In this document: positions 4,332 to 57,305 of the stretch, piece by piece
How the letters are laid out: every line of letters begins with the position of its first letter
Position numbering within the stretch: position 1 is the stretch's first letter
Notes under the pieces: generated by a model
Told to the model about the DNA's origin: nothing
The model's database searches: none
Seen by the model: the letters and a program-made list of their open reading frames with translations, nothing else
Position numbers and translations under genes: made by a program
NCBI GenBank assembly: GCA_902621205.1
Contig: CACNLH010000002.1
Coordinates: forward strand, 62,001-126,000
DNA length: 64,000 nt
Direction of reading: 5' to 3'
Source: an uncultured Alphaproteobacteria bacterium
GTDB lineage: Bacteria; Pseudomonadota; Alphaproteobacteria; HIMB59

Positions 4332-4353
4332 GCATTAATTAATTATCTTATTT

Positions 4354-4379
4354 TTAGGGGCAAGATTTCTTGCCCCTAA
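4354..4379 (+). promoter_or_regulatory. Intercistronic stem-loop between pstS and pstC
   Basis: TTAGGGGCAAG (4354-4364) pairs perfectly with CTTGCCCCTAA (4369-4379) around an ATTT loop. Such GC content is exceptional here. No T-run follows on the plus strand, so I read it as an mRNA-stabilising or partial-termination hairpin that raises pstS over pstC, not a full terminator. Confidence 0.7.
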
Positions 4380-4411
4380 GACAAAATCAGTTTATAGAGG
4401 AATAGGACAAT

Positions 4412-5848: not shown

Positions 5849-7091
5849 TTTAGAAAAGAGACTTGCAGCAGAGAAACGTTTCAAATTTTATGGAATGTTT
5901 GCGATGACTCTCTCTTTGTTCTTCGTGCTTATTTTAATGTATAAAATTTTTTCTACCGGCAGTGGTGCTTTTGTTAGAACAACTATTAATGCTGATGTTT
6001 ATTTTGACCCAAATTTTATAGAGGTTTCTAGTAACTCCTCCAAAAAAGAAATAATGAAAGCATCTTATGTTGATCTTGCTGATCAAGTGATTAACCAAAA
6101 CCATCCTGGATTAGATGAAGAAAATTTTATTAAAGTCAGAGAAATGTACACAAGAAAATTTGATTATCAGCTGAGAGATTATATTGCAAACAATCCAAAT
6201 GTAATTGGAAAAACTGTCAATTTAGATATATCTGCCTCATCAGATCTTGACCAAATTGTCAAAGGAAACTATCCAAGAAATGTTCCCGAAGCACAACGAA
6301 AAATAAATGATTATCAACTTTCTATCTTAGACTCTTTAGACTCCAAAGGTAAAATGTCTAAGACATTCAATTTTTGGTTTTTCACAAATGGAGACTCAAG
6401 AGATCCAGAAACAGCCGGAATACTTGGAGCACTTATGGGGTCTTTTTATGCTTTATTGATCTGTTTTAGTTTTGCTTTTCCAATCGGACTTTTGGCTTCT
6501 GTGTACTTAGAGGAATTTGTTAAACCAGGAAAAATAACTGACATTATTGAAGTAAATATAAATAACCTTGCGGCGGTTCCCTCTATTGTTTACGGACTTT
6601 TAGGCTTAGGTATGCTAATTGGAGTTTTTGGGATGCCATATCAAGTCCCTTTAGTTGGAGGATTAGTTTTAGGTTTTATGACTTTACCAACAATTATTAT
6701 AGCATCTAGGGCATCGCTCAGAGGCGTCCCCCCTTCAATTAGAGAGGGAGCACTTGCTGTGGGGGCTACTAAAATGCAAACTGTATTTCATCATGTAATC
6801 CCTTTATCTTTGCCAGGTACTCTTACTGGAACAATTATTGGAATGGCACAAGCTTTGGGTGAGACAGCCCCTTTATTATTGGTAGGTATGGTTGCTTTTG
6901 TGATGGAAATACCGGGAGGGGCATTCGACCCTGCCACTGGTCTTCCTTCACAAATATATCTATGGTCTGAGAGCGCTGAAAGAGGTTTCCTCGAAAAAAC
7001 ATCTGCAGGAATAATGCTACTTTTATCTTTTTTGATTATAATGAATACTGTGGCAGTGTTGGTAAGAAGAAAATTGGAGGTGAAATGGTAG
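5841..7091 (+). CDS. pstA: Phosphate ABC transporter permease PstA
   Basis: Second membrane subunit of the phosphate importer. It has 416 residues: one N-terminal membrane segment at about 18-38, a periplasmic domain to about residue 190, then the permease core with [20 protein letters not shown] as the ATPase-coupling loop and [10 protein letters not shown]. The long N-terminal domain is the form known in alphaproteobacteria. It overlaps pstC by 8 bases and pstB by 7, which indicates translational coupling of the whole set. Confidence 0.93.
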
Positions 7092-7861
7092 ATCAAAACA
7101 GCAATTATGCTTTGCAAACAAGTGAGGTATATGTCCACTATGGAAAAAAAATGGCAATCAATAACGTTGCTCTTAATTTTCCAAAAAATGAAGTAACTTC
7201 TCTTATAGGACCCTCAGGTTGTGGTAAGTCGACATTTTTGCGATGTTTAAACCGTATGAATGATGTAATAGATATTTGTAATGTTAAAGGTAAGTTTTTG
7301 TTGAATGGCAATGTTGATATATATAGCCCTGATATACAGGTAGAAACTCTTCGCGAAAAAGTTGGAATGGTTTTTCAAAAACCCAATCCTTTTCCAAAAA
7401 CTATTTATGAAAATGTTGCCTACGGACCAAAAATTCATGGTATTGCTTCTTCTCAAAATGAATTAGATGAAATAGTAAAAGACTCACTTCACAGAGCGGG
7501 TCTTTATGAAGAGGTAAAAGATAGAATGGATGATATTGCTACCGGTTTATCAGGAGGACAACAGCAAAGATTGTGCATTGCAAGAGCGATTGCTATAAGA
7601 CCGGAAATCATTTTGATGGACGAACCTTGTTCTGCATTAGATCCAATAGCAACCGCAAAAATAGAAGATTTAATTAACGAATTGAAAGAAAATTACACAA
7701 TTATTATAGTAACTCATTCTATGTCTCAAGCATCACGAGTATCATCTAAAACTGCGTTTTTTCATTTAGGTAACCTTGTCGAATATGGAGAAACTGGTAA
7801 GATATTTACAAAACCTGATAAAGAACAAACAAATGACTACATAACTGGAAGGTTTGGTTAA
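7085..7861 (+). CDS. pstB: Phosphate ABC transporter ATPase PstB
   Basis: Cytoplasmic ATPase that powers phosphate import and takes part in PhoR signalling. The 258 residues contain Walker [10 protein letters not shown], the Q-loop in [11 protein letters not shown], signature LSGGQQQRL, Walker B IILMDEP and the switch histidine in VTHSM. All are intact. TTGGAGGTGAA precedes the ATG inside pstA. phoU begins 1 base after its stop. Confidence 0.96.
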
Positions 7862-7862
7862 A

Positions 7863-8546
7863 ATGGAAACAGCACACACAGATAAAAACTTTGAACAAAA
7901 GTTAAATCATCTTACAGATAATTTAATTAAAATGAGTAATATTGTTGAGAAACAAATTGAAATTGCAGTAAATGTTATTAAATCTAAAGACTCATCTGAT
8001 GCACAGACAACACAGAATCTTGATGAACAAGTTGATGAAGTGGAAAGAGATGTTAGGGATTTAAGTTTCGAAATTATGACTTTACATAGACCCGTTGCCA
8101 GTGATTTAAGACTAGTTTTCACTGCCCTCAAAGTTTCAAAAGAGCTTGAGAGAATGGGAGATCACTCTAGAAATTTAGCAAAAAGAGCTATTTCAATTTC
8201 TTCTTCATTTGACGAGGATTTAACGGACCAAATGCATAATTTAGGTAAAGGTGTCCAAAAAATGGTTAATCAAACACTTGAGAGTTTTTTTAAAAAAGAT
8301 GAGGTACAGGCAAGGATCTCATGGAATCAAGATGCAGAAATTGACAGGCAGTACAAATCTTTATTATCTGATTTAATAGAAAGAATGCACAATAAAGAAA
8401 CAAGTGTTGTTGATGAAGGCACTAAGCCAATTTTAATTGCAAAGTCCTTAGAAAGAATAGGTGATCATGCTACTAACATAGCTGAAGAGGTCATTTTTAA
8501 CATTACAGGTCATTATATTGATTTAAAAAAATCTGATTTTGAATGA
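7863..8546 (+). CDS. phoU: Phosphate signalling protein PhoU
   Basis: PhoU links the PstSCAB transporter to PhoR and keeps the Pho regulon off when phosphate is plentiful. The 227 residues form two PhoU repeats, each with a metal-binding E/D-rich motif (ERMGDHSRNLAKRA and ERIGDHATNIAEEV). I place the start at the ATG 7863-7865, 1 base after the pstB stop with GGAAGG upstream; an in-frame TTG at 7854 is less likely. It overlaps phoB by 4 bases (ATGA). Confidence 0.95.
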   Translation: METAHTDKNFEQKLNHLTDNLIKMSNIVEKQIEIAVNVIKSKDSSDAQTTQNLDEQVDEVERDVRDLSFEIMTLHRPVASDLRLVFTALKVSKELERMGDHSRNLAKRAISISSSFDEDLTDQMHNLGKGVQKMVNQTLESFFKKDEVQARISWNQDAEIDRQYKSLLSDLIERMHNKETSVVDEGTKPILIAKSLERIGDHATNIAEEVIFNITGHYIDLKKSDFE

Positions 8547-9232
8547 CAGACAAGATTTTAGTTGTAGAGGATGAAAAACCAATCTCAGAATTAATTGGAT
8601 TTCATTTAGAACAACAAAACTACCAAATAAAATTTTCATACGACGGAGAATCTGCAATCCAAGAGATCGAACATTGGCTGCCTGATTTAATTTTATTAGA
8701 TTGGATGCTACCAAATATATCGGGCATTGAAGTTTTAAAGAGAATTAAAAGAAAAGATAATCTAAAAAAAATTCCAATTATAATGTTAACAGCTAAAGGT
8801 CAAGAGGATGATAAAATTAGAGGTTTTGAATTAGGTGTGGAGGATTATGTAACCAAACCTTTTCTTCCAAGTGAGATCCTTGCTAGAATTAAATCATTAC
8901 TTAAAAGAACAAAAGCAAGAGAAGAGAACGACTCACTCAAGTTTCATGATATTAACATTAATCTTACCAACAGAAGGGTATCAAGGGGTGAGAGAAAATT
9001 AAATTTAGGACCGACTGAATTTAATCTTTTAAAATTTTTTATTGAAAATAAAGGTAGAGTCTATTCTAGGCAGCAACTATTGGATAATGTTTGGTTAAAT
9101 GACGCTTACGTTGAACCTAGAACAGTTGATGTTCACATAAGAAGACTCAGAAAAGAGCTGAATTTACCAGGAGAAAAAGATTTCATTCGAACAGTTAGAT
9201 CCGCTGGCTACTCTATCGATTCAGAAAATTAA
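8543..9232 (+). CDS. phoB: Phosphate regulon response regulator PhoB
   Basis: Transcription activator of phosphate-starvation genes. The receiver domain has acidic pocket EDE at 9-11, phospho-acceptor D53, T83 and K105. A linker at about 120-135 leads to a winged-helix domain with RTVDVHIRRLRKELN as the DNA-recognition region. It has 229 residues, the family norm. The start overlaps phoU. The recognition helix is conventional, which supports reading the 11-base repeats before pstS as its site. Confidence 0.95.
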   Translation: MTDKILVVEDEKPISELIGFHLEQQNYQIKFSYDGESAIQEIEHWLPDLILLDWMLPNISGIEVLKRIKRKDNLKKIPIIMLTAKGQEDDKIRGFELGVEDYVTKPFLPSEILARIKSLLKRTKAREENDSLKFHDININLTNRRVSRGERKLNLGPTEFNLLKFFIENKGRVYSRQQLLDNVWLNDAYVEPRTVDVHIRRLRKELNLPGEKDFIRTVRSAGYSIDSEN

Positions 9233-10765: not shown

Positions 10766-11554
10766 ATGCAAATCAAAAAACATCGATCTATATTTATTTC
10801 AGACATTCATATTGGCATACGTGCTTCAAAAGTAAAGGAGCTCTTACACTTTTTAAAATATAATGATTGTGATCATCTTTATTTACTTGGAGATATTATA
10901 GACGGATGGCGTCTAAAAAAAAATTGGTTTTGGAATCCTGATTTTAATACTTTCATACAAAAAGTTTTACGAAAAGCACGCTCAGGTACCAAAGTCTATT
11001 ATATACCTGGAAACCATGATGAAGTTTTTTCAGATTATTGTGGTTTTTCATTTGCAAACATTAAAGTTCGAAAAAATAGAATTCATACAACAGCGAACAA
11101 TAAAAGACTTCTCTTAATGCATGGGCATGAATTTGATGGAATAGTTCTAAATTCAAAATGGTTAGCAAAGATAGGTGCCGTCCTTTATGACTACTCTGTT
11201 TGGTTTAATAATATTTTAAATTTCTGTCGAAGAAAACTTGGTCTTTCGTATTGGTCTTTATCAGGATATTTAAAAACACGAGTAAAAGATGCTCAACGAT
11301 ATATTGAAAATTTTGAAAATGCATGTCTTGAGAGAATAAAAAAAAATAATTGTGATGGAATTGTTTGTGGTCATATTCACCATCCCCAAATAAAAAAAAT
11401 TGGTGACAAGACATATCATAATCTAGGAGATTGGGTAGATAGCTGTAGTGCAATGGTTGAGGACTTTAAAGGCAACTTGGAGTTAGTCTTTTGGAATGAA
11501 AAAAAAATCCAGTCTTTAGAAAAACAAACTCTTAATAAGGTATCTGTAGCTTGA
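10766..11554 (+). CDS. plcP: PlcP-type phospholipase C, metallophosphoesterase
   Basis: Calcineurin-fold enzyme that, in the PlcP family, removes the phosphate head group from membrane phospholipids to give diacylglycerol when phosphate is scarce. Metal-binding motifs appear in order: SDIHIG, GDIIDGW, PGNHDE, HGHEFDG and CGHIHHPQ. The segment RRKLGLSYWSLSGYLKTRVKDA and the GDWVDSCSA end match rhizobial PlcP as I remember it. LpxH is the same superfamily and the main alternative. A glycosyltransferase overlapping by 4 bases, a Pho-like site upstream and adjacent pho genes favour PlcP. It has 262 residues. Confidence 0.82.
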   Translation: MQIKKHRSIFISDIHIGIRASKVKELLHFLKYNDCDHLYLLGDIIDGWRLKKNWFWNPDFNTFIQKVLRKARSGTKVYYIPGNHDEVFSDYCGFSFANIKVRKNRIHTTANNKRLLLMHGHEFDGIVLNSKWLAKIGAVLYDYSVWFNNILNFCRRKLGLSYWSLSGYLKTRVKDAQRYIENFENACLERIKKNNCDGIVCGHIHHPQIKKIGDKTYHNLGDWVDSCSAMVEDFKGNLELVFWNEKKIQSLEKQTLNKVSVA

Positions 11555-12543
11555 AATTATTATTAGTAACAGATGCATGGAAACCTCAGGTAAACGGCGT
11601 CGTCCGTTCTTATCTGAATACCATACCGGAATTGGAAAAAATGGGTATGCAGGTAGAAGTAATACACCCTGAGTTATTTAAAGTTCGCTTTGGCCTTCCT
11701 TCGTATAATGAGATTAAAGTTGTGATTACTCGCAAAAAAACATTGAAAAATATGATGGATCAGATCAATCCTGATCATATTCACATTGCTACAGAGGGGC
11801 CCCTAGGTTTTTTGGCCAGAAAAATATGTCTTTCAGAAAAAATTATTTTTACAACTTCATTTCATACTCGTTTCCCTGAGTATATTCAACAACGTATAAA
11901 AATACCTGCAAGTTTCTTTTACTTCTTCATAAAGCATTTTCACAATAAAGCGAAAAAAGTTCTTGTTCCTACCCCATCCATGCAGGCCGAATTAATAAAT
12001 ATGAATTTTAAAAATACCGTTGTTTGGTCAAGAGGTGTCGATCATCAAAAATTTGGCAACTATCAAAAATTAGACTTAGGCCCGGGACCAATATTTTCTT
12101 ATATCGGTCGAGTGGCTACTGAAAAAAATATTCAAGCTTTTTTAGATTTAGATTTAGAAGGTACTAAAGTTGTCGTTGGCGATGGACCACAGTTAAATAA
12201 ACTAAAAAAAAAATATACAGATATAAAATTTGTTGGTTACCAGTTTGGCCAGAATTTAGTGAATTACTATGCTAGTTCAGATGTAATGGTTTTCCCTAGC
12301 AAGACTGATACCTTTGGAAATGTGGTAACTGAGGCAAATGCAACCGGCACACCAGTCGCTGCTTATGATGTAACAGGTCCTAAAGATATTATTGTTAATG
12401 GGGTCAACGGTTTTATTGGTGATAACTTAAAAGATAATGTTTTGAATTGTTTGACTATCGATCGAAAAAAATGTCAAGAATATACAAAAAAATTTAACTG
12501 GTATGAGTGTTCCAAGGTTTTTTATGATAATATTGTGGCTTGA
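11551..12543 (+). CDS. agt: Family 4 glycosyltransferase, probable Agt for glycolipid synthesis
   Basis: Probably glycosylates diacylglycerol to make phosphorus-free glycolipids. The GT-B fold is visible: N-terminal VTDAWKPQVNGVVRSY, HIATEGPLG and a C-terminal donor-binding region FPSKTDTFGNVVTEANATGTPVAAYD, whose glutamate is the family's conserved residue. Start is TTG overlapping the plcP stop. Known Agt enzymes sit directly after plcP in the same order in alphaproteobacteria. Sugar specificity (glucose or glucuronate) cannot be read from the sequence. It has 330 residues. Confidence 0.8.
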   Translation: MKLLLVTDAWKPQVNGVVRSYLNTIPELEKMGMQVEVIHPELFKVRFGLPSYNEIKVVITRKKTLKNMMDQINPDHIHIATEGPLGFLARKICLSEKIIFTTSFHTRFPEYIQQRIKIPASFFYFFIKHFHNKAKKVLVPTPSMQAELINMNFKNTVVWSRGVDHQKFGNYQKLDLGPGPIFSYIGRVATEKNIQAFLDLDLEGTKVVVGDGPQLNKLKKKYTDIKFVGYQFGQNLVNYYASSDVMVFPSKTDTFGNVVTEANATGTPVAAYDVTGPKDIIVNGVNGFIGDNLKDNVLNCLTIDRKKCQEYTKKFNWYECSKVFYDNIVA

Positions 12544-44668: not shown

Positions 44669-47407
44669 TTACGCACTACATGTTACACAATCTTCCGGTT
44701 CATTAGATTGCGCCTCTTTGACATAAGACTCTTTTGCTTTTTTTTCAGAAGACACTGTTACTTTAACTGCGTCTACGGCTGATCGGCTTCGCAGGTAATA
44801 CATGCCTGTTTTTAAGCCTTTTTTCCAAGCATACATGTGCATGGAGTTTACTTTTCCAAAAGTAGGTGTTGCCAACCATAAGTTCATGGATTGGGTTTGG
44901 TCAATAAATGGCGCTCTATCAGCTGCCATATCTATAACTGTTTTTTGAGATGTTTCCCAAACAGTTTTATAAACATCTTTTAAGTCTTCAGGAAATCCTT
45001 CAATATTTTGTACAGAGCCATTTTCCAAAATAATTTGATCACGTAATTCTTTGCTCCATAAGTTTCTTTTCATAAGTTCTTTAACAAGGTGACGATTTAC
45101 TAATAAAAATTCACCTGAGAGAGTTTGTCTTTTATAAATGTTTGATGTTTGTACTTGGAACGTTTCAGTATTTCCTAGGATAATACCAGTGGAGGCTGTA
45201 GGCATACATGCAGTGGTCAAAGAGTTTCGAACACCATGCTTTTGGATTTTCTCCATTAATCCCTTCCAGTCCCACATACTTGACGGTTTAACACCCCAAA
45301 GATCAAATTGGAATTTCCCTTCAGATAGAGGGGATCCTTTAAAAGTAGAGTAAGGCCCTTTATCAGTAGCAAGTTCCATTGATGCTTCTAAAGCTCCAAA
45401 ATAAATTGTCTCAAAAATTTGTTTATTAATTATTTGCGCTTGAACAGAGTCATAAGGGATATTCATTTTAAAATAAACATCTGCTAAACCCTGTATACCG
45501 AGACCGATAGGACGGTGACGACTATTTGAGTTTTCAGTTTTATTAGTAGGATAGAAATTTATATCAATAACTTGATCTAAATTCTTAGTCGCCAGTTTTG
45601 CAACTTGATATAAGTTTTGATAATCAAATTTACTTTCATCAGTTACAAATTTTGGCAATGCAATTGACGCAAGGTTACAAACAGCAGTTTCATCTTTTTC
45701 AGAATACTCCACTATCTCTGCACAGAGATTAGAAGATTTAATGACACCAATATTTTTTTGGTTAGACTTATTATTAACAGCATCTTTGTAAAGCATGTAT
45801 GGCTGACCAGTTTCAATTTGGGCTTCGATTATTTTAGACATTAAAGCTCTTGCCTTTATTCTTTTTAAGTCAGGCATTTCATTTTCATATTTTGTATAAA
45901 GATCAACAAACTCCTTGCCATATGTATCCGATAAACCAGGGCATTCGTGTTCACTCATTAGAGTCCAATCGGCATCTTCTTCGACTCTTTCCATAAATAA
46001 ATCAGGGATCCATAATGCATAGAATAAGTCTCTGGCTCTAAATTCTTCAGCTCCCGTATTTTTTCTAAGCTCTAAAAAAGCCTCAATATCTGCATGCCAT
46101 GGCTCCAAATAGACAGCAAAAGAACCCTTTCTTTTACCTCCACCCTGATCAACAGACCTTGCTGTTTCATTAAAAATTTTAAGGAAAGGTATCAATCCAT
46201 TAGACTTGCCATTGGTTGACTTAATACGGCTACCGCCACCTCTAATGTTATGAGCATGAAGACCAATGCCACCAGCGGTTTTTGAAATTAAAGCGCAGTC
46301 TTTTACAGTATTAAAAATTCCTTCGATAGAGTCATCTTCCATTCCAATTAGAAAACAGGACGACAATTGTTGCATCTTTAAACCACTATTAAATAGAGTG
46401 GGGGTTGCGTGTGTGTAGAAACCCTGAGATAGGCTGTCATAAGTTTTCTTAACCTGATAAAAATCAAACTTATCTCCGGACACACATAAAGCGACTCTCA
46501 TCCATAAATCCTGAGGTCTTTCTGCTGTTTTATTGTTTGATTGTAAAAGATAAGCTCTGAACAAAGTAGTCAATGCAAAATAATCAAAGTAATAATCACG
46601 ATCGTAGTCAATAATTTTTTCAATCTCTTCAGCGTTAGCTTTTACTTTTTCATAATATTCATCGCGCAATAAACCATCCTCATAAAGATTTTTTGTTGCA
46701 ATAATAAAACCTGGTGTTTCTTTATGTAGAGCATTAGCTTTAATCCTCCCAGCTAGATATGAGTAATCGGGATGTTCTACTGTCAGAGCAGCAGCTGTTT
46801 CAGCTAGGTAAGTGTCTATTTCATTTGTTGTGATACCATCGTAAAGACCTTGAATTGCCTTTTGAGCAATTGTAATAGGATCTATCTCTAAACCGTTTGA
46901 CAAAATAGAAATGCGATTTGTAATTTTTTCTAAAGAGATATCCTCTTTGTTACCATCTCTTTTGGTAACAGCCATTGTGGATACTTTGGCACCAATTTGT
47001 TCATTCAGTTGAGCAGTCTTATAACGTTGGTTAGCTCTTTGTTCTCTGTAGAGTACATAGGCGCGAGCTACTTTATGATGTTCACCCCTCATGAGGGCTA
47101 ATTCCACTTGGTCTTGGATATCCTCGATATGAATCATATCACCGTTTGCAATACGTCTAGTTAGAGCCGCGGTGACTGTTTCAGTTAAAACTGAAACATT
47201 TTTGTCAATTTGTTTGCTATCACGAAGATCAGTTTGTGCCAAAAATGCTTTTCTTATAGCATTTGCAATTTTGTCAGATTTAAAAGGTGTTATCGATCCA
47301 TCACGCCTTACAACACTGAGACTTAGCAAGTTTATTTCTTCGTTTTGCTTATTTATAACTGTGTTTTTTGTTGAATTTTCAAGTGATTCTGCGTTATTTG
47401 TTTCCAT
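44669..47407 (-). CDS. nrdA: Class I ribonucleotide reductase, catalytic alpha subunit
   Basis: Reduces ribonucleoside diphosphates to deoxy forms. I start at the ATG complementary to 47405-47407 (METNNAESL), with AGGAAG just upstream, giving 912 residues. Two ATP-cone regulatory domains lie at about 30-130 and 145-235, then the catalytic barrel with NLCAEI and PTASTGIILGNTE. The C-terminal redox pair is CVTC. Two ATP cones suggest layered allosteric control. NrdR-like boxes lie upstream. Confidence 0.95.
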   Translation of the reverse strand: METNNAESLENSTKNTVINKQNEEINLLSLSVVRRDGSITPFKSDKIANAIRKAFLAQTDLRDSKQIDKNVSVLTETVTAALTRRIANGDMIHIEDIQDQVELALMRGEHHKVARAYVLYREQRANQRYKTAQLNEQIGAKVSTMAVTKRDGNKEDISLEKITNRISILSNGLEIDPITIAQKAIQGLYDGITTNEIDTYLAETAAALTVEHPDYSYLAGRIKANALHKETPGFIIATKNLYEDGLLRDEYYEKVKANAEEIEKIIDYDRDYYFDYFALTTLFRAYLLQSNNKTAERPQDLWMRVALCVSGDKFDFYQVKKTYDSLSQGFYTHATPTLFNSGLKMQQLSSCFLIGMEDDSIEGIFNTVKDCALISKTAGGIGLHAHNIRGGGSRIKSTNGKSNGLIPFLKIFNETARSVDQGGGKRKGSFAVYLEPWHADIEAFLELRKNTGAEEFRARDLFYALWIPDLFMERVEEDADWTLMSEHECPGLSDTYGKEFVDLYTKYENEMPDLKRIKARALMSKIIEAQIETGQPYMLYKDAVNNKSNQKNIGVIKSSNLCAEIVEYSEKDETAVCNLASIALPKFVTDESKFDYQNLYQVAKLATKNLDQVIDINFYPTNKTENSNSRHRPIGLGIQGLADVYFKMNIPYDSVQAQIINKQIFETIYFGALEASMELATDKGPYSTFKGSPLSEGKFQFDLWGVKPSSMWDWKGLMEKIQKHGVRNSLTTACMPTASTGIILGNTETFQVQTSNIYKRQTLSGEFLLVNRHLVKELMKRNLWSKELRDQIILENGSVQNIEGFPEDLKDVYKTVWETSQKTVIDMAADRAPFIDQTQSMNLWLATPTFGKVNSMHMYAWKKGLKTGMYYLRSRSAVDAVKVTVSSEKKAKESYVKEAQSNEPEDCVTCSA

Positions 47408-47443
47408 TCTTCCTACCAAGTTAAAGTGTACTTTTTTGAATAA

Positions 47444-47502
47444 TCACTAGATGTAGTGTTTATTGCCTAGTGACTATACAATCTATAGACAATCTTAGTC
47501 AA
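47444..47502 (-). promoter_or_regulatory. nrdA promoter with tandem NrdR boxes
   Basis: Reading toward nrdA, -35 TTGACT (complement of 47497-47502) and -10 TATAGT (complement of 47473-47478) are 18 bases apart. TCACTAGATGTAGTGT (47444-47459) matches the 16-base NrdR consensus ACACWATATATWGTGT at 13 positions. ATACAATCTATAGACA (47476-47491) matches at 11 and lies between the -35 and -10. The boxes are 32 bases apart, three helical turns, as known for NrdR. Repression by NrdR-ATP/dATP is inferred. Confidence 0.75.
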
Positions 47503-47777
47503 TTTATTTTGTATTAAATTCTGAAAAGCCAATAAATTCAATTGGAAATTAAAGATTCAATTAACAAGTAATTTGAAAATATTCACAGGTTTTTATCAAA
47601 TTTTCCAAAACTACGAATATCTCTTAAAAAATACTATTTAGGTCCATTTTTAATAGCCCTAATTCTGACCTGATTCGCATTTTGCAAATCAAAAACAATT
47701 CACATTTATGTTCAACTTTCATAAGGAATTCAGGATTTTTTAATAGATCTCTGTTTAAAATCCCTTACTTTCATTTG
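47503..47777 (+). promoter_or_regulatory. Untranslated leader before the methyl-cycle operon, possible switching structure
   Basis: No gene is evident. TGATTCGCA pairs with TGCAAATCA (about 47671-47691), one mismatch, around a TTT loop. Alternatively CCTGATTC (47670-47677) can pair with GAATTCAGG (47736-47744), one bulge, followed by ATTTTTT. The two pairings exclude each other, as in attenuators. I recognise no known riboswitch consensus. An alternative is that the upstream 32 codons (from 47682) are an N-terminal extension of the kinase, but they do not resemble the family. Confidence 0.3.
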
Positions 47778-48728
47778 GTGAAAAAAATTCTAGGGGTAGG
47801 AACTGCTTTGGTTGATGTAATATGCCAGGTAGAGGACAGTGTTATCAATAATTTGAAATTAACTAAAGGCTCTATGACATTGATTGAGGAGTCTCAAATT
47901 AAGGAAATTAGGTCAAATTTCGATAATCCATTAATTACTTCGGGTGGATCAGTATGTAATACTATCCATGAATTAAACTTTAGCTCTCATGAGGCAAGTT
48001 TTTACGGCAAGGTCAATGATGATGAGTATGGAAATGCTTTTGTTCAAGATTTACAAAAAGAAAATATCTCGTTTAAAGGTGTCTCCAATAAAACAGATCT
48101 TCCAACTGGCTGCTGTAATATTTTAGTTTCACCCGATGGTGAAAGAACCATGGCTACACACATCGGAATAGGATCACAATTAAACCCTGACGAAGTTAAT
48201 GAAGATATACTCAATTCAATTGATCATGTGTACATGGAGTCATATCTTTGGGATCATGAACTTACAAAAAAAACACTCAAAAAATTTTCAGATATTGCAA
48301 AATCAAAAAACATAGAAATATCTCTTTCATTGTCAGACCCCTTTTGTGTTGATCGACACAGAGATGAATTAAAAAATTTTATAACTGATAATGTAGATTT
48401 AGTTTTTTGTAATTTTGATGAAGCAAAGATGTTTACACAATCTGATTCAATGGCAGATGTGAGTTCTTTTTTTAAAAATTTTAGAAAAAAAATTGTTATG
48501 ACCTCTGGTGCTGAGGGTGCATATTATTTTTTTGAAGACGATGTAAAACATCAATCTGCTCAAAAAATAGAAAATGTTCTGGACACAACAGGTGCAGGAG
48601 ATAATTTTGCTGCAGGATTTTTAGATTTTTACTTATCTGGAAAACCTGTCGATGAAGCGCTTAAAAATGGTAATAGAAAGGCTGAAGAAGTTATTCAGCA
48701 GCTGGGACCAAGGATAAAAAGAGCTTGA
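47778..48728 (+). CDS. PfkB-family kinase, probable adenosine kinase
   Basis: Probably phosphorylates adenosine released by S-adenosylhomocysteine hydrolase, pulling that reaction forward. It starts VKKILGVGTALVDVICQVED at GTG 47778, 316 residues. SGGSVCNTI and the C-terminal DTTGAGDNFAAGF are PfkB signatures, with the catalytic aspartate in GAGD. Adjacent ahcY and metK point to adenosine over ribose or fructose. The start has no clear ribosome site. Confidence 0.82.
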   Translation: MKKILGVGTALVDVICQVEDSVINNLKLTKGSMTLIEESQIKEIRSNFDNPLITSGGSVCNTIHELNFSSHEASFYGKVNDDEYGNAFVQDLQKENISFKGVSNKTDLPTGCCNILVSPDGERTMATHIGIGSQLNPDEVNEDILNSIDHVYMESYLWDHELTKKTLKKFSDIAKSKNIEISLSLSDPFCVDRHRDELKNFITDNVDLVFCNFDEAKMFTQSDSMADVSSFFKNFRKKIVMTSGAEGAYYFFEDDVKHQSAQKIENVLDTTGAGDNFAAGFLDFYLSGKPVDEALKNGNRKAEEVIQQLGPRIKRA

Positions 48729-48783
48729 TAATGAAGAATAAATCATATTTTATTTTAAAAAGTCTGTCTAAAAGGAGGGTTAA

Positions 48784-50064
48784 GTGGATTACAAAGTAAA
48801 AGATATTTCCCAACATGAATTTGGGAGACAAGAAATTGAAATAGCAGAAACTGAAATGCCAGGATTAATGGCTATTCGTGAACAATATGGAGAGTCAAAA
48901 CCGTTGGCCGGGGCCAATATTATGGGCTGTCTTCACATGACCATCCAAACTGCTGTCTTAATTGAAACACTTGTAGCACTTGGCGCAAAATGTCGATGGA
49001 GCTCTTGTAATATTTACTCTACTCAAGATCATGCAGCTGCTGCTATTGCCCAAAGCGGCACACCTGTTTTTGCCTGGAAGGGTATGAATGAAGATGAATT
49101 TTGGTGGTGTATTGATCAAACAATTGAGGCAGATGGGTGGGAGCCTAATATGATACTAGATGATGGTGGAGACTTAACACTTCGAATGCATGAGAAGTAC
49201 CCTGAGCTTTTGAAAAATGTCAGAGGATTATCTGAAGAAACTACCACAGGTGTCCTTCGTTTAGAGCAAATGGCATCTAAAGGAACTCTTCAAGTTCCTG
49301 CTATAAATGTAAATGACTCTGTAACAAAAAGTAAATTTGATAATTTATATGGTTGTAAGGAAAGTTTAGTAGACGGAATTCGAAGAGGAACTGACGTAAT
49401 GATGGCGGGTAAAGTTGCTGTTGTAGCCGGGTTTGGAGATGTTGGAAAAGGCAGCGCAGCTTCATTAAGAGGAGCTGGAGCTAGAGTTCAAGTAACAGAA
49501 GTTGATCCTATTTGCGCACTACAAGCAGCAATGGAAGGCTATGAGGTTGTTACTATGGATGATGCATGTAAGTATGCTGATATCTTTGTAACTGCAACAG
49601 GTAATAAAGATATCATTACCCAAGACCACATGAGAGAAATGAAAGATCGTGCAATTGTCTGTAATATTGGACACTTTGATAATGAAATTCAAATAGATGA
49701 TTTGCAAAACTATAAATGGGAAGAGATAAAACCTCAAGTTGACCAAGTAACATTTCCAGATGGTAAGAAGCTAATAATACTTTCAAAGGGAAGGTTGGTG
49801 AACTTAGGTAATGCCACTGGCCATCCTAGTTTTGTGATGAGTGCATCATTCTCAAATCAGGTTTTAGCTCAAATTGAAATTTGGGAGAATTACAAAAACT
49901 ACGAAAATAAAGTCTATGTCCTTCCTAAAAAACTAGATGAAATGGTTGCGATGTTTCACCTGCAAAAAGTTGGTGCTAAACTGACTGAAATGTCCAAGGA
50001 ACAAAGCGATTATTTAGGTGTCGAACAGCAGGGTCCATTTAAGAAAGATACATATAGGTACTAA
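48784..50064 (+). CDS. ahcY: S-adenosylhomocysteine hydrolase
   Basis: Splits SAH into homocysteine and adenosine, relieving inhibition of methyltransferases. The 426 residues show [23 protein letters not shown], the NAD loop [12 protein letters not shown] and the C-terminal lysine-tyrosine end KKDTYRY. The GTG start has a strong AAGGAGG seven bases upstream. metK starts 1 base after its stop. Confidence 0.97.
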
Positions 50065-50065
50065 A

Positions 50066-51238
50066 ATGAGAAAAAATTACATTTTTACATCTGAGTCAGT
50101 GTCTGAGGGGCACCCAGATAAAGTTTCTGATCGAATTTCTGATGTAGTTGTCGATCATTTTATCTCCAAAGACCCATTTGCTAGAGTCGCTTGTGAAACA
50201 CTAACAACAACCAACAAAGTTGTTTTATCCGGTGAAGTAAGAGGGCCAGTCCAAGAAGACAAAGATGAAATTATTTCAAAAGTAAGGGAGTGCATAAAAG
50301 ATATCGGCTATGAGCAAGATGGTTTTCATTGGCAAACCGCAGATATTCAATATTTACTTCACGGACAATCTGCAGATATTGCAATGGGTGTAGACTCATC
50401 ATCTGACAAAGATGAGGGGGCGGGTGACCAAGGAATTATGTTTGGATACGCTTGTACGGAAACACCTGAGCTGATGCCGGCACCAATTTTTTATTCTCAT
50501 AAAATCTTAGAGATAATGGCTAAGGGAAGAAAAGACGGTAGCTTAAAAGGATTAGAGCCTGACTCAAAAAGCCAAGTAACTCTTAAATACGTTGATGGTA
50601 AACCAAGTGCAGTTACATCTGTCGTGATATCAACACAACATGCTGATGGATTATCTCCTGCTGATGTTAAAGAAATAGTAAACCCAGCATTAAAAGTGTC
50701 TATCCCTGAAGAGTTATTAAAAAATTTAGACGATAAGGAATACTACGTAAATCCAACAGGTAATTTTGTTATCGGAGGACCAGATGGTGATACGGGATTA
50801 ACAGGAAGAAAAATTATTGTCGACACCTATGGTGGTGCAGCACCTCATGGTGGAGGGGCTTTCTCCGGAAAAGATCCCACAAAAGTCGATCGCTCTGCAG
50901 CTTATGCTTCACGATACTTAGCAAAAAATATTGTTGCTGCTGGTTTATGTGATCAGTGTACTATCCAGTTGTCTTATGCAATCGGTGTAGCCAAACCATT
51001 GTCAATTTATGTGAACACTCAAGGCACTAATAAAATAGATGAAGCAAAAATTGAGTCTGCGATACCTGACATTATGAATCTTTCTCCAAGAGGAATCAGA
51101 GAGAAATTACAGTTAAATAAGCCAATTTACGAACAAACAGCAGCTTACGGTCATTTTGGTAGAACACATGACAGCTCATCAGGAGCTTTTTCATGGGAAG
51201 CTCTAGATTTAGTATCCGATTTCAAATCGCTAGCTTAA
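50066..51238 (+). CDS. metK: S-adenosylmethionine synthetase
   Basis: Makes SAM from methionine and ATP. The 390 residues begin [19 protein letters not shown], with [12 protein letters not shown] and [16 protein letters not shown] as family signatures. I place the start at ATG 50066, 1 base after the ahcY stop, so there is no room for a metK riboswitch. Together with the kinase and ahcY it completes most of the activated-methyl cycle. Confidence 0.97.
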
Positions 51239-51688
51239 TTGAGTTTGAGATTTGCAGTCTCTAATGAAATTGAGTTAAAAACTCTAGCTAGAAATATATC
51301 TAGGTCTATTTCTAAAAACCAGATTATTTTTTTTGAGGGAGAGGCTGGTTCTGGTAAGACAACTTTAATTAGATATATCTTAAGTGAAATTAGCAACTCA
51401 GAAAAAAAAACTTTTTACTTTCAAGGGAGCCCCACGTATCAAAGAGAACATATTTACAATTTTAATAAGTTTAATATTATTCACTTTGATTTTTATCAAG
51501 TTCAAAATAACAAACTAGATTTGGATGAGTATTTTAATGATAATTGTATTCTCATTGAGTGGCCATTAAAAAATCTTATGAAAAAATATAACCATATGGC
51601 CTTATCAATTAATATTTTGGTTACTGAAGAAAAAAGAAATATAGAGATAAAATCAAGTAATAAAAAATGGCTTCACAAAATAAAATAA
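51239..51688 (+). CDS. tsaE: tRNA threonylcarbamoyladenosine biosynthesis ATPase TsaE
   Basis: Works with TsaB and TsaD in making t6A37 in tRNAs. The 149 residues contain Walker A FEGEAGSGKTTL, SPTY and HFDFYQ, and ILIEWP near the end of the core. TTG start abuts the metK stop and its end overlaps the next gene by 22 bases. The fold and motifs are conventional. Confidence 0.93.
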   Translation: MSLRFAVSNEIELKTLARNISRSISKNQIIFFEGEAGSGKTTLIRYILSEISNSEKKTFYFQGSPTYQREHIYNFNKFNIIHFDFYQVQNNKLDLDEYFNDNCILIEWPLKNLMKKYNHMALSINILVTEEKRNIEIKSSNKKWLHKIK

Positions 51689-52635
51689 ATCTTATCAAAA
51701 TAAAAAACTACCTTCAAAATAAAAATTTTAAAATAGGGGGCTTTTTAAATTTCAAGTCTGATGCATCAGAAAAAATTTTCAAATTATGTAAAACAGCAAA
51801 TCAATCATTACTTGTACTCTCTTTTTTAAATAAACCTAGCGAATATAAAAAATATATTAAAGCAACTGATATTTTAATTTCTCAAAATATTAATACACCA
51901 AAAATAATTGATCAAAGTAATTTACATAAGTTTGTAATCATGGATTATTTCCCTATTGCAAATGCATCAAAATATTTCCAAAAACCTCAAATTAAAAAAA
52001 TACTTCCATTGGCTGTGAGAGCTCTTACAAATCTTCAAAAACCCAGGAAAAAGTTTTCAGGCGTTCGGGTAAAATCACAAAATAATTTACTTAATGATGC
52101 TTTGAACGGCATTGAGACTTTTATTGATCACTATGATCACAAGATCCAAATTGGTTTTTATCTCAATAAACTTGTGAAAGTATCTTTGAAAAAAAGTACT
52201 GAAAAATATAGAAAATTTAAGCCAACTTTAACTCACGGTGATTTTTTTTTAGATAATTTAATTTATTACAATCAAAAAATTTATGTTATTGATCATCAAG
52301 ATACTCACTACAACCACCCATTATTAGACATTTCTTCATTGATTTTTGATGCTAGGAGATCTTACTCTACTAAAGTCGAAGATAAATTAATGAAGCTTTA
52401 TGCAAGAAGAATGAAACTTAATCTCAAGGGGCTTAGGTCAGATATTCATATGATTAGTCTTTTACGTAATCTGAGAATTCTTGGTAATTGGGTGCAATTA
52501 TATAACGCTGGAAAACCAAAATATCTTAAAGTCTTTAGAAAAAATACATGGGCTCAAATATTTAAACATGTTGAATATTTAAGACTTTGGGATCTAAGAG
52601 AAATATTTATAGAGATATATAACAAAACAAGTTAA
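51667..52635 (+). CDS. AmgK-like sugar kinase (aminoglycoside phosphotransferase family)
   Basis: Probably phosphorylates N-acetylmuramate at its anomeric carbon in peptidoglycan recycling. The catalytic loop is THGDFFLDNLIYY and the metal site VIDHQDTHYNHPLLDISSL. The N-terminal lobe is short and lysine-rich. Adjacency to a MurU-like nucleotidyltransferase and tsaE is the usual alphaproteobacterial context for this pair. 322 residues. A drug-resistance role is not supported. Confidence 0.78.
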   Translation: MASQNKINLIKIKNYLQNKNFKIGGFLNFKSDASEKIFKLCKTANQSLLVLSFLNKPSEYKKYIKATDILISQNINTPKIIDQSNLHKFVIMDYFPIANASKYFQKPQIKKILPLAVRALTNLQKPRKKFSGVRVKSQNNLLNDALNGIETFIDHYDHKIQIGFYLNKLVKVSLKKSTEKYRKFKPTLTHGDFFLDNLIYYNQKIYVIDHQDTHYNHPLLDISSLIFDARRSYSTKVEDKLMKLYARRMKLNLKGLRSDIHMISLLRNLRILGNWVQLYNAGKPKYLKVFRKNTWAQIFKHVEYLRLWDLREIFIEIYNKTS

Positions 52636-53277
52636 ATGGACGCTCTAATATTAGCTGCAGGTTATGGAATGCGAATGGATAACTTAACCAAAGATATCCC
52701 TAAACCCTTATTAAAAATAAAAAATAAAACACTTATTAGCTATGCAGTTGATCTAATTAAAAACATGTCGTTTGATAAAATTTATATCAATACTCATTAC
52801 AAACATAATATGTTGGAGAAATTTGTCTCTGAAAATTACCCTGATATTTCAATTTCTTATGAGGAAACTATCTTAGGAACAGGAGGTGGTATCAAAAAAA
52901 TTCAAAAAAATGATATAGTAATTCTAAATACAGATAATTTATGGGACCAGTCCTTTGAAAATGAATTAGAGGGATCAATTAAATTTTTTGAAGAAAATAA
53001 AAATTTTGATAATGTCCTCCTTATAAATTCTAAAAATTATAATTTTGATCTTGAAGTAAATAATGATGGACTTATTAACTTTCCATCAAAAATCTACAAT
53101 ACTTCATTTCAAGGTTGTCATATTATAAGAAAAAACTCTTTGTATCCTTATCCTGAAATTTTTAACATTCAAGATTTTTGGAAAGATTGTTCTTTAAATG
53201 AAAAAATCTATGGATATGAGACCACTGTAACCAATGCTCATGTTGGAACTAAAGATGAGTATTTGAAATACAAATAA
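52636..53277 (+). CDS. MurU-like nucleotidyltransferase
   Basis: Probably makes UDP-MurNAc from MurNAc-1-phosphate, partner of the preceding kinase. The 213 residues carry the NTP-transfer start ALILAAGYGMRM followed by KPLLKIKNKTLI, and the metal aspartate in LNTDNLW. It begins directly at the preceding stop. It is shorter than glucose-1-phosphate thymidylyltransferases. trxA follows after 19 bases. Confidence 0.8.
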   Translation: MDALILAAGYGMRMDNLTKDIPKPLLKIKNKTLISYAVDLIKNMSFDKIYINTHYKHNMLEKFVSENYPDISISYEETILGTGGGIKKIQKNDIVILNTDNLWDQSFENELEGSIKFFEENKNFDNVLLINSKNYNFDLEVNNDGLINFPSKIYNTSFQGCHIIRKNSLYPYPEIFNIQDFWKDCSLNEKIYGYETTVTNAHVGTKDEYLKYK

Positions 53278-53296
53278 TCATTACCATATTAAGTAT

Positions 53297-53623
53297 ATGA
53301 TAGTTGAACAAATAAATGACGATGAATTTAATCAAAAAGTTCTTGAAGGATCAAAAGATAAGCCCGTTTTAGTAGATTTTTGGGCTGAGTGGTGTGGTCC
53401 ATGTAAGGCTATAGCCCCCATATTAGATAATTTAGCCTCTGAAATGAGCGATAAGATATCTATAAAAAAAATTAATATAGATGAAAACCCTCAAGCACCA
53501 GCAAACTTCAGTATTAGAAGCATACCCACAATGATACTCTTTAAAGATGGATCATTGGCTGACACAAAGATCGGTTTAGGCTCCGAAACAGACTTAAGAG
53601 ATTGGATTAATAGTAAACTTTAG
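53297..53623 (+). CDS. trxA: Thioredoxin
   Basis: General disulfide reductase; 108 residues with active site WAEWCGPCKAI and cis-proline in RSIPTMILF. It could reduce the ArsC of this window and ribonucleotide reductase. In the usual alphaproteobacterial order addB and addA lie before trxA; they are missing here. Confidence 0.95.
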   Translation: MIVEQINDDEFNQKVLEGSKDKPVLVDFWAEWCGPCKAIAPILDNLASEMSDKISIKKINIDENPQAPANFSIRSIPTMILFKDGSLADTKIGLGSETDLRDWINSKL

Positions 53624-53677: not shown

Positions 53678-54964
53678 CTATATATCTATTTCATATGGGA
53701 ATGAGCTTAGTTGCTCCAAGCCATCTTTGGTTACAACGAACTGATCCTCAAGTTTAATTCCTTCTTTGCCGCCAACTTCACCAATATAACTCTCTACACA
53801 GATAGTCATATTTTCCTCAAAATTGGCTGAGTAATCCGCATTGCTAAAATCTTTATTTGGGTAAGCAACAAGTGGCCATTCATCACAAAGACCGACACCA
53901 TGAATAATGCAGGGGTAATGATTATCATAACAATTATCTGGCAATTTCCAGGATTTTTCTGCAAATTCTCTAAAATTTAAACCAGCTTTAATTAGAGATT
54001 TGTTATGATTGATATGCTCTAATGACATTGAGTAAAGCCTTTTTTGTTCATCATTGAGACGATTGCCCTCAACAAAGGTTCGAGAGATATCAGCACAGTA
54101 ACCGTACGGTCCAACCATATCTGTGTCAAAAGCAACTAAATCTCCAGACTCAATGACTCTGTTACTGCATTCTTGAAGCCAAGGATTTGTTCGTGGTCCA
54201 GATACTAAAAGACGAGTCTCAAACCATTCCCCACCATTTTCAATATTGACTTTATGCATGTATGACCAAAGTTCCTCTTCTGTCATACCTGCCTGAAGTT
54301 TATCTTTCATTAGCCACATTCCTTTTTCAGCAGTCTCAATAGAAGCTCTCATGCAAATTAGCTCATCATCAGATTTAATGGATCTTGCAAGCTCAATGTA
54401 CTTTTGGGCGTTCACTAGTTTAACATTAAACTGTTTAAGTAACATTTGTATTCCAACTGGATCGGAAACATCTATTGCAAGGCAATTATTATTAGGTGAA
54501 TGCTCTCTCATTAAATCTTGAACAGTGCCAGCCCATTTTTTTGCATTTTTATCAACAAAATTATTTGCTGAAAAAAAATCCCAACTATCAACTGCTCGAA
54601 TATCATCAATCGTGCATAAATGTTCTGAAAGATGTTCGCTCTTTGGATAATCAAATAGTATTACTTTTCCCTCTGCAGAAATAAATACAAATCGCACAAG
54701 TTCATGCATTGTAAATAAACTCATATTTCTACTGTCGGTTGCATACCTTATATTGATCGGATCAAATAATATGCAAGCACCAACATTATTTAATCGTAGT
54801 TGTTCTAAAACTCTATTGAGTCGGTACATACGCAAACGGTCGAAGTCTATTTTTTCTTCATAGAGTCTAGGTTTGTAAACTTGATTTTCAAAATTTTGGT
54901 TAATTGTTTCGAAAAACTTTGGGCCAATTTTACGGTCAGCAAACTTACTTGTAAAATTACTCAT
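53678..54964 (-). CDS. dddP: DddP-type DMSP lyase (M24 peptidase fold)
   Basis: Likely cleaves dimethylsulfoniopropionate to dimethyl sulfide and acrylate. The 428 residues match DddP across the length: ACILFDPINIRYATDSRNM, GGEWFETRLLVSGPRTNPW and HGVGLCDEWPLVAYP are nearly the roseobacter wording as I remember it. Metal ligands D280, D282, D292, H355, E391 and E406 are present, and D361, six residues after H355, corresponds to the proposed catalytic Asp377 of Ruegeria lacuscaerulensis DddP. An ordinary Xaa-Pro peptidase would not share these stretches. It overlaps an upstream methyltransferase by 8 bases. Activity remains inferred. Confidence 0.85.
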   Translation of the reverse strand: MSNFTSKFADRKIGPKFFETINQNFENQVYKPRLYEEKIDFDRLRMYRLNRVLEQLRLNNVGACILFDPINIRYATDSRNMSLFTMHELVRFVFISAEGKVILFDYPKSEHLSEHLCTIDDIRAVDSWDFFSANNFVDKNAKKWAGTVQDLMREHSPNNNCLAIDVSDPVGIQMLLKQFNVKLVNAQKYIELARSIKSDDELICMRASIETAEKGMWLMKDKLQAGMTEEELWSYMHKVNIENGGEWFETRLLVSGPRTNPWLQECSNRVIESGDLVAFDTDMVGPYGYCADISRTFVEGNRLNDEQKRLYSMSLEHINHNKSLIKAGLNFREFAEKSWKLPDNCYDNHYPCIIHGVGLCDEWPLVAYPNKDFSNADYSANFEENMTICVESYIGEVGGKEGIKLEDQFVVTKDGLEQLSSFPYEIDI

Positions 54965-56069
54965 CTAAATTAATTTTAACATAATTCTTTTCAAATCTTA
55001 AAAGATGATCACTAAATTGCAATTTGAGTTTTTTTGCACGGTTACTAATTTTATCAAGAAAATCAATACTTATTTTTATACTTTTTTGTTCATTTTCGGA
55101 TATTTGACCAACATAGGTTATAGCATTCCATAAACCAAGAGAGTTCATCGGTGAAAATTTTTTCTTGGAGGATAATGATAAGTTTATAAATGAAAATAAA
55201 AATGTAGATAAGGATACTTTAAATTTTTTTCTAAAATGAGGTATATTTTTATTCAGGTTTTCTACAAATTTTTTGGGATCACTAAATTGATAGGGATTAA
55301 TTTTTGGAAAGAATAATTTGAGAAGCTTTTTTGAAAAATCATTTCCAGATGAATAAATAAAAAATAGCTGACCTTTTACATCTAACATTTTTAATAATGG
55401 AATAAGTACAAGCTTAAGTGTTCTGTTGTAAGGAGATCTTAGCCTGAAAGCTTGAGATGCAATTATATAGTCGTAAAACTTTGGAATATTCTCTAACTTA
55501 CTTGGTATCAAATGCTTTAATGCAATTTTTTGATCCTTCCTATAAATAACCATCAGTGTCTTTTGCTTCGGTCTCAATATGGTTGAAGATGTATCCTCTT
55601 TTATGTCCCAATTTTTTCTTATAATCTCACCCATATTCATGAGTTGTTGATTGAAACTAAAACTTGTATTTCCAACTAATTCTTTTTTAATTAATTTACA
55701 ATCTGTGAATCGATTATCATTAATTTCTCTGTAGGATGCATTTGTTATACAGAAAACTAAATTCTTATGTTCAAAAAATCTATAACCAAGATAATTTAGA
55801 AGACTGTTAATATCATCAATACTAATTTCTTTTCCAACAACTATAATTGGATCTTCGGGAAATTTGTCATGAACAGCCGATAGCAATGTGCATATGACTG
55901 AGCCATCTCCTGTCCCAGCATCAAAAATTCTAAATGAGTCTTTAGTAATTTTTGAATTTTTTAAATACTTCGCTAATTGAAAAGCTATTCGACTTTTTTC
56001 ATTGGTAGAATTTACAAATGATAAATATTTATCTCTTGAGTCGAAAAAATCTGATTTTTTTGCCCCCAC
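54957..56069 (-). CDS. SAM-dependent methyltransferase-like protein of unknown substrate
   Basis: The 370-residue protein has a class I cofactor loop FRIFDAGTGDGSV at about 47-59 and a later YDYIIASQAFRLRSP segment where the catalytic region of such enzymes lies. I do not recognise its family, and it does not look like DsyB or UbiE. The lysine-rich C-terminal 150 residues are without assignment. It starts at GTG with AGGAGA upstream and its last codons overlap dddP, so the two are made together. A link to DMSP or another methylated osmolyte is possible but unproven. Confidence 0.65.
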   Translation of the reverse strand: MGAKKSDFFDSRDKYLSFVNSTNEKSRIAFQLAKYLKNSKITKDSFRIFDAGTGDGSVICTLLSAVHDKFPEDPIIVVGKEISIDDINSLLNYLGYRFFEHKNLVFCITNASYREINDNRFTDCKLIKKELVGNTSFSFNQQLMNMGEIIRKNWDIKEDTSSTILRPKQKTLMVIYRKDQKIALKHLIPSKLENIPKFYDYIIASQAFRLRSPYNRTLKLVLIPLLKMLDVKGQLFFIYSSGNDFSKKLLKLFFPKINPYQFSDPKKFVENLNKNIPHFRKKFKVSLSTFLFSFINLSLSSKKKFSPMNSLGLWNAITYVGQISENEQKSIKISIDFLDKISNRAKKLKLQFSDHLLRFEKNYVKINLDE

Positions 56070-56270: not shown

Positions 56271-57305
56271 ATGACTAATATCATTAAATCAGGTGGAAGC
56301 CACGAAACAGACGTTGTTATTATAGGAGCTGGTCCGTGTGGTCTCTTTCAAGTTTTTGAATTGGGCCTTTTAGATATGAAGGCTCACTTAATCGACAACC
56401 TTGATAAAATAGGAGGTCAGTGCGCAGAATTATATCCTGATAAAAATTTATATGATATTCCAAGTAGGCCTGCTATTACCGGCCAAGAACTAACCGATGA
56501 TTTAATAAAACAAGCTGAGCCTTTCAATCCCTCTTATCATCTCAATCAATTAACCTCTAAAATATCTTTAAATGATAATGATATTTTAGTTGAAACCGAT
56601 AAAGGCACATCCATTAAATGCAAGTCTCTTGTGATTGCAGCAGGTGCTGGTAGTTTTGTTCCAAGAAAGCTTCCTGCAGAGGGTTCTCAGGAGCTAGAAA
56701 ATAAACATATTTTTTACTCTGTTAAAAAAAGATCTGATTTTCAAGATAAGAATATTTTAATAATTGGTGGTGGTGACTCTGCACTGGATTATGTTATGGG
56801 ATTTCAAGGAATAGCCAAAAAAGTTTCTTTGGTACACAGAAGAAAAGAATTTAAAGGAGTTCAAGACTCTGTAAATAAAGTTATGTCTTTAGTTGATAAA
56901 GGCGATGTAAATTTCAATATGGGAAGTTTAAAAAAGGTTGAAAAAAATGATAACGGTAAAGTCACAGCGACACTTGATGATGAGACAACCATAGATGATA
57001 TTGACGCAATATTCCCTTTTTTTGGTTTAAAAATAGAATTAGGCCCAATTGCAGACTGGGGTTTGAATTTAGAGAAAAATTTAATATCAGTGAATACTGA
57101 AAATTTTGAAACTTCTGTTCCAAGAGTTTTTGCTGTTGGAGATATTTGTATTTATCCTGGTAAATTAAAGTTAATCTTGAGTGGATTTCATGAAGCTGCA
57201 CTTGCAGCAAAAAAAATGTTTGAGTATTGTCATAGCGATAAAAAGTATGTTTTTAGATACACTACTTCTTCAAGTGATCTTCAAAAAAAACTTGGTGTAA
57301 AATAA
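56271..57305 (+). CDS. Ferredoxin--NADP(+) reductase, thioredoxin-reductase-like type
   Basis: FAD enzyme exchanging electrons between NADPH and ferredoxin or flavodoxin. The 344 residues show FAD loop VIIGAGPCGLFQ, IGGQCAELYPDKNLYDIP, NADPH loop IIGGGDSALDY and the distal VFAVGDICIYPGK. The CxxC of thioredoxin reductase is absent, and the C-terminal extension after the FAD motif is typical of the YumC type. It is divergently oriented from the dddP pair across 201 bases in which I see no firm element. Confidence 0.9.
   Translation: MTNIIKSGGSHETDVVIIGAGPCGLFQVFELGLLDMKAHLIDNLDKIGGQCAELYPDKNLYDIPSRPAITGQELTDDLIKQAEPFNPSYHLNQLTSKISLNDNDILVETDKGTSIKCKSLVIAAGAGSFVPRKLPAEGSQELENKHIFYSVKKRSDFQDKNILIIGGGDSALDYVMGFQGIAKKVSLVHRRKEFKGVQDSVNKVMSLVDKGDVNFNMGSLKKVEKNDNGKVTATLDDETTIDDIDAIFPFFGLKIELGPIADWGLNLEKNLISVNTENFETSVPRVFAVGDICIYPGKLKLILSGFHEAALAAKKMFEYCHSDKKYVFRYTTSSSDLQKKLGVK

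Follow-up and report, generated by a model that had tools for sequence, protein, structure and literature searches.

A DddP-like protein of an uncultured HIMB59-order alphaproteobacterium lies outside the clade of characterized DMSP lyases

We analyzed a 64,000-nucleotide stretch of DNA (the window) from an uncultured alphaproteobacterium of the HIMB59/AEGEAN-169 order. Judging from sequence phylogeny, its DddP-like protein and the relatives of that protein in the order fall outside the clade that contains characterized DddP. We give roughly even chances to the reading that the protein is a metalloenzyme with the DddP fold that acts on a small onium zwitterion, with a betaine being a more likely substrate than DMSP. 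A preliminary description of this DNA had predicted a DMSP lyase that releases DMS, which is not supported by the position of the protein outside the DddP clade or by its score well below the family cut-off.

Results

The preliminary description placed the ends of the dddP-like gene exactly but did not mention its strand (Table 1). The GC content is 32% in the window and 35% in the gene, and the source genome is 1.30 Mb in 23 contigs at 86% completeness, in agreement with the AT-rich, small genome proposed earlier. The gene is under purifying selection relative to four relatives (pN 0.06-0.21; pS 0.75-0.82, with pS saturated). Most of the 41 related loci from named genomes come from uncultured Alphaproteobacteria, sequenced as single-cell or metagenome genomes.

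Table 1. Features at the dddP-like locus, in window positions
Feature	Position	Strand	Remarks
Thioredoxin gene, convergent neighbor	53297..53623	plus	
DddP-like M24-fold protein	53678..54964	minus	428 aa, ATG at 54964
D361 codon, equivalent of RlDddP catalytic base D377	53882..53884	minus	from alignment
F84 codon, W95 in RlDddP	54713..54715	minus	from alignment
370-aa ORF upstream of the dddP-like gene	54957..56069	minus	GTG start; overlaps dddP-like start by 8 bases
FAD/pyridine-nucleotide oxidoreductase gene, divergent from the 370-aa ORF	56271..57305	plus	

The neighbors are a thioredoxin gene, a 370-aa ORF and an FAD oxidoreductase gene, so the earlier remark that no acrylate gene is adjacent holds. 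The 370-aa ORF had no match in Pfam or NCBIfam. Its glycine-rich FDAGTGDG stretch suggests by eye a SAM-type fold, and its predicted model was uninterpretable (mean pLDDT 36.5, pTM 0.24). With no family match and no usable model, the ORF was set aside as a functional clue. Nor is it a fixed partner, since it is missing upstream of the gene in four related loci (L039, L040, L042 and L044). On the thioredoxin side, a block at 44669-53623 (ribonucleotide reductase, sugar kinase, ahcY, metK, tsaE-like, kinase, nucleotidyltransferase and trx genes, named partly by eye) keeps its place beside the dddP-like gene at many of the related loci.

DddP is the nearest characterized family, as had been proposed. 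A phmmer comparison with PDB sequences aligned residues 40-425 of the window protein with RlDddP (4rzy) at E=8.6e-91, a likeness well beyond chance; RdDddP (4b28) came next at 3.6e-86, and the best peptidase reached 2.1e-15. The predicted model, of moderate confidence (mean pLDDT 62.7, pTM 0.67), had DddP structures as its top four Foldseek matches (4s01, 4s00, 4rzy and 4b28), followed by prolidases, DoeA and creatinase. Pfam matches were to Peptidase_M24 and Creatinase_N. The best NCBIfam family was NF043017 (DddP) at 376.5 bits, below its equivalog cut-off of 600. A homologue scoring 358-384 bits is present in 33 of the 60 genomes of the relatives set, which includes the window's own, and the cut-off is exceeded in none of the 60; it was exceeded in 9 of 337 in a draw across the class. 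However, we do not treat 600 bits as an activity boundary, because a SAR116-type protein (L196) that is likely a genuine DddP also misses it, at 572 bits. An AcuI-family gene lies directly upstream of the L196 gene (TIGR02823, 428 bits; cut-off 297), an order that agrees with the accessible description of Ca. Puniceispirillum marinum (PMC3338564), a strain reported to cleave DMSP (PMC8547437). The window protein is 45.9% identical to a Paraburkholderia homologue (L078), 44.0% to one from Rhizobium (L079) and 38.3% to RlDddP; against SAR116-type DddP the identity is 43-44% over about 90% of the length. An M24 paralogue in the same genome (L005, positions 7525-8814; 24% identity, 113.6 bits to NF043017) was rejected as a DddP, as it has no equivalents of D297 and D377.

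Alignment with RlDddP confirmed the earlier statement that the six metal ligands and the catalytic aspartate are intact. RlDddP residues D295, D297, D307, H371, E406 and E421 correspond to D280, D282, D292, H355, E391 and E406 of the window protein, Y366 to Y350, and D377 to D361. All six ligands (three Asp, one His and two Glu) are reported to be required for DddP activity in the accessible text of two studies (PMC4108388, PMC5395565). The ligands are kept in 104 of 107 aligned homologues, and all eight residues (ligands plus Tyr366 and Asp377) in 86 of them. Since so many homologues keep them, the eight residues do not discriminate DddP. Motif evidence alone was accordingly discarded as proof of DMSP lysis, as 46 of the 86 lie outside both the DddP clade and the HIMB59/AEGEAN-169 order, and the stretches once described as family-specific are common to homologues well beyond verified DddP. 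The DddP clade has 95 conserved positions; the order retains 78 of them and differs at 17, with W95F and W312F among the changes. The equivalents of W277 and W379 are present in the window protein. The Trp of RlDddP at position 95 is replaced by Phe in all 12 order rows; across the 88 rows with D377, Phe occurs in these 12 and five others, and the remaining 71 have Trp. According to the accessible part of PMC5395565, which gives no residue numbers, the DMSP sulfur in DddP is bound by a Trp and a Tyr; the Trp may be W95.

A quick tree (95 rows) and a careful tree (52 rows) agree in their placement of the protein. RlDddP is their one characterized anchor by name, L094 and L196 being taken as SAR116-like by inference; Oceanimonas DddP1 and DddP2, the scallop-symbiont DddP and fungal DddP were left out. 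The DddP rows (RlDddP with SAR116-type and Roseobacter-type rows) form one clade, with an SH-aLRT support of 99 in the quick tree (26 rows) and 100/100 in the careful tree (16 rows). The HIMB59-order rows, including the window protein, form a separate clade (100/100, careful tree). Two starred branches (97/92 and 96/88) unite DddP with non-HIMB59 rows first, to the exclusion of HIMB59; the branch above them (85/96) was not starred. Forcing DddP and HIMB59 together cost 49.2 log-likelihood units and was rejected by the AU test (p=0.000105). The preliminary description had named placement outside the DMSP-active clade as the outcome that would count against it, and this is the placement obtained. 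The row nearest to the HIMB59 clade is L148, with a support of only 87/76, and the tree program flagged six rows, the window protein among them, for skewed amino-acid composition.

The neighbors of homologues outside the order point in several cases to the breakdown of N-methyl compounds or betaines. On a Rhizobium plasmid, a Rieske oxygenase and a reductase gene lie directly upstream of the homologue, with formaldehyde-detoxification and cupin genes near, and the same kind of pair lies directly upstream in Paraburkholderia. These oxygenases are GbcA-like, although they score below the GbcA cut-off of 670 (411.9 bits in Rhizobium and 389.8 in Paraburkholderia). Downstream of the homologue in S. 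meliloti come an isochorismatase and a glycine-betaine ABC system, and MttB and a betaine ATPase gene are near the homologue in Mesorhizobium. Rieske, MttB or DMGDH-type genes occurred within about 9 kb in 16 of the 31 loci that bear D377 and belong to neither the DddP clade nor the order, compared with 3 of 21 DddP-clade loci (Fisher p=0.008); these counts are not independent, as several Rhizobium rows are close kin, and a machine recount gave 17 of 31, the extra one being a 60-bit reductase. MttB alone was found near 10 of the 31 and none of the 21. The G377 group, betaine-linked in S. meliloti, had the Rieske, MttB or DMGDH-type markers in only 2 of 11 loci. AcuI-family neighbors were seen at 3 of 21 DddP-clade loci, none of the 31 D377 loci and none of 43 order loci, with one weak match in the G377 set. 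The neighbor counts exclude L226 (D377N, Y366A) and L082 (a long, unsure branch), and some loci in them are shorter than the full flank, L202 being only 4 kb.

Within the order (43 loci, mostly close kin, so that counts are not independent), a Rieske gene is near 17 loci and a homocysteine S-methyltransferase-family gene near 14; MttB is near none of the 43. A Rieske gene of at least 300 bits is present in 22 of 60 genomes, 18 of which also have a DddP-like gene. In 16 of these 18 the two genes lie within 19 kb of each other (0.2 to 18.6 kb), and in the other two they are on different contigs. Conversely, four of the 60 genomes have the Rieske gene without a DddP-like gene, 14 of the 32 genomes besides the window's own that carry a strong DddP-like gene have no Rieske gene, and the window's own genome, at 86% completeness, had no match to the order's Rieske gene at E<=1e-25. 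The link is frequent in the order but not obligatory. Because the own genome and those 14 lack the Rieske gene, the enzyme does not depend on it, and the idea that its role is tied to this gene is weakened.

A small multidrug-resistance-type exporter gene is near 25 of the 43 order loci and none is in the window; in locus L027 it directly follows the dddP-like gene (11290-11610). Divergent from the 370-aa ORF and the dddP-like gene of L027, positions 4204-8796 hold genes for a Rieske oxygenase, a DapA-family protein, an FAD amino-acid-oxidase-family protein and a homocysteine S-methyltransferase; together these could be a betaine catabolic set. In L009 and similar loci, about 9.7 kb that is absent from the window (L009 11285-21033) separates the dddP-like gene from thioredoxin. 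This stretch is a phosphonate island, with phosphonoacetate hydrolase and phosphonoacetaldehyde dehydrogenase over their NCBIfam cut-offs, and it also carries a methionine-synthase catalytic domain, a PsrA-like Fe alcohol dehydrogenase and an ABC system.

The preliminary description had suggested a genome search for DMSP and acrylate genes. The window's genome encodes a 367-aa DmdA (482.9 bits; DMSP-demethylase NCBIfam cut-off 410) and three OpuAC-type binding proteins, one of which, of the betaine type (L193 5921-6958), is two genes from DmdA (L193 2688-3791) on contig C6. Neither AcuI-family TIGR02823 nor PrpE TIGR02316 was over its cut-off in any of 40 genomes, while two control genomes passed for TIGR02823; the best PrpE match in the own genome reached 520 of 827 bits. 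Absences from the own genome alone are weak, because it is only 86% complete. Within its 1.3 Mb the genome also has ten GCV_T-domain matches, five of which fall in proteins roughly 780-1000 aa long, and is on this count rich in methylated-amine breakdown.

Discussion

The window protein is a DddP homologue of the M24 'pita-bread' type, and its D280, D282, D292, H355, E391 and E406 are predicted to hold two metal ions. It is part of a broad family in which this active site is retained beyond the clade of characterized DddP. By analogy with DddP, the carboxylate of an onium substrate most likely binds the metals, the onium group would lie near Y350, and D361 is the candidate general base that would drive cleavage of a C-N (or C-S) bond, by elimination or hydrolysis. 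We consider a betaine-type quaternary amine a more likely substrate than DMSP because of the neighbors of the relatives. The tree and AU test, the higher identity to non-marine homologues than to RlDddP, and a DmdA that would already give the organism a DMSP route were also counted for a betaine. Counted against it were the own genome without a Rieske gene, the lack of MttB near all 43 order loci, the scarcity of markers in the G377 group, the conservation of D361 and Y350, and the skewed composition of the HIMB59 rows.

An alternative is a true but diverged lyase of DMSP (or DMSOP), in which the metals would bind the substrate carboxylate and D361 would abstract the alpha proton, so that DMS (or DMSO) and acrylate leave. 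We regard this as possible, if somewhat unlikely. All ligands, Y350 and D361 are kept, as are most DddP-clade-conserved positions, the top fold matches are DddP entries, and known DddP also cleave DMSOP in the accessible account of PMC10686828. The marine origin of the organism, its DmdA and its three OpuAC-type binding proteins also fit a lyase. The placement outside the DddP clade argues the other way, as does the change of W95, the presumed sulfur contact, to Phe throughout the order. The lack of AcuI and PrpE over cut-off in the 40 genomes also counts against a lyase, although there are PrpE-like matches of about 520 bits and acrylate may be consumed by another route. A role as an M24 peptidase (of the Xaa-Pro dipeptidase or aminopeptidase P type) or as a creatinase- or ectoine-hydrolase-like M24 hydrolase is quite improbable, despite the Pfam matches, the rank of prolidases, DoeA and creatinase next after DddP in the fold search, and the annotation of rhizobial relatives as 'Xaa-Pro peptidase family protein'. 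The match to DddP is far stronger than that to any peptidase, and the peptidase active-site His, which is placed at the DddP D377 position in the accessible text of PMC5395565, is D361 in the window protein. DddP itself is reported, in the available part of a review, to be inactive on Val-Pro.

The preferred reading, an enzyme for a betaine-type zwitterion, suggests a broader and more tentative scenario. DddP may be one branch of a wider binuclear-metal family that cleaves betaine-type zwitterions in demethylation clusters (with Rieske, MttB, DMGDH and homocysteine methyltransferase neighbors); DMSP lyase would have arisen within this family, and the HIMB59/AEGEAN-169 form would be a distinct enzyme acting on an onium substrate of its own.

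The assignment bears on ocean surveys, in which the window protein may be miscounted as a sulfide producer; it could pass a survey filter if the SAR116-type DddP is among the ratified sequences. Were the HIMB59-order proteins unable to cleave DMSP, the DMS source predicted for oligotrophic waters would be partly mis-assigned; were they able to, the active family would extend far beyond the current clade, into soil bacteria. Within the HIMB59/AEGEAN-169 literature on DddP or DMSP, we found no description of the gene in passages of PMC12421898 and PMC7487153, and the main texts of PMC10308909 and PMC10734472, on this clade, contain no DMSP or dddP.

Among known systems, RlDddP (4RZY) and RdDddP (4B28) share with the window protein the fold, the six ligands, the Tyr366 and Asp377 equivalents and the GVGLCDEWPLVAYP stretch. 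However, the window protein is only 38.3% identical to RlDddP, lies outside its clade, differs at 17 of the 95 conserved positions and scores 376.5 bits where the family cut-off is 600. The 'Xaa-Pro peptidase family protein' of Rhizobium leguminosarum WSM1689 and the Paraburkholderia plasmid homologue have the same eight residues and are closer in sequence (44-46% identity), but they keep Trp95 and adjoin a GbcA-like Rieske oxygenase and reductase that are absent from the window. Prolidase, aminopeptidase P and ectoine hydrolase have the M24 fold in common with the window protein, at about 20% identity and with much weaker scores.
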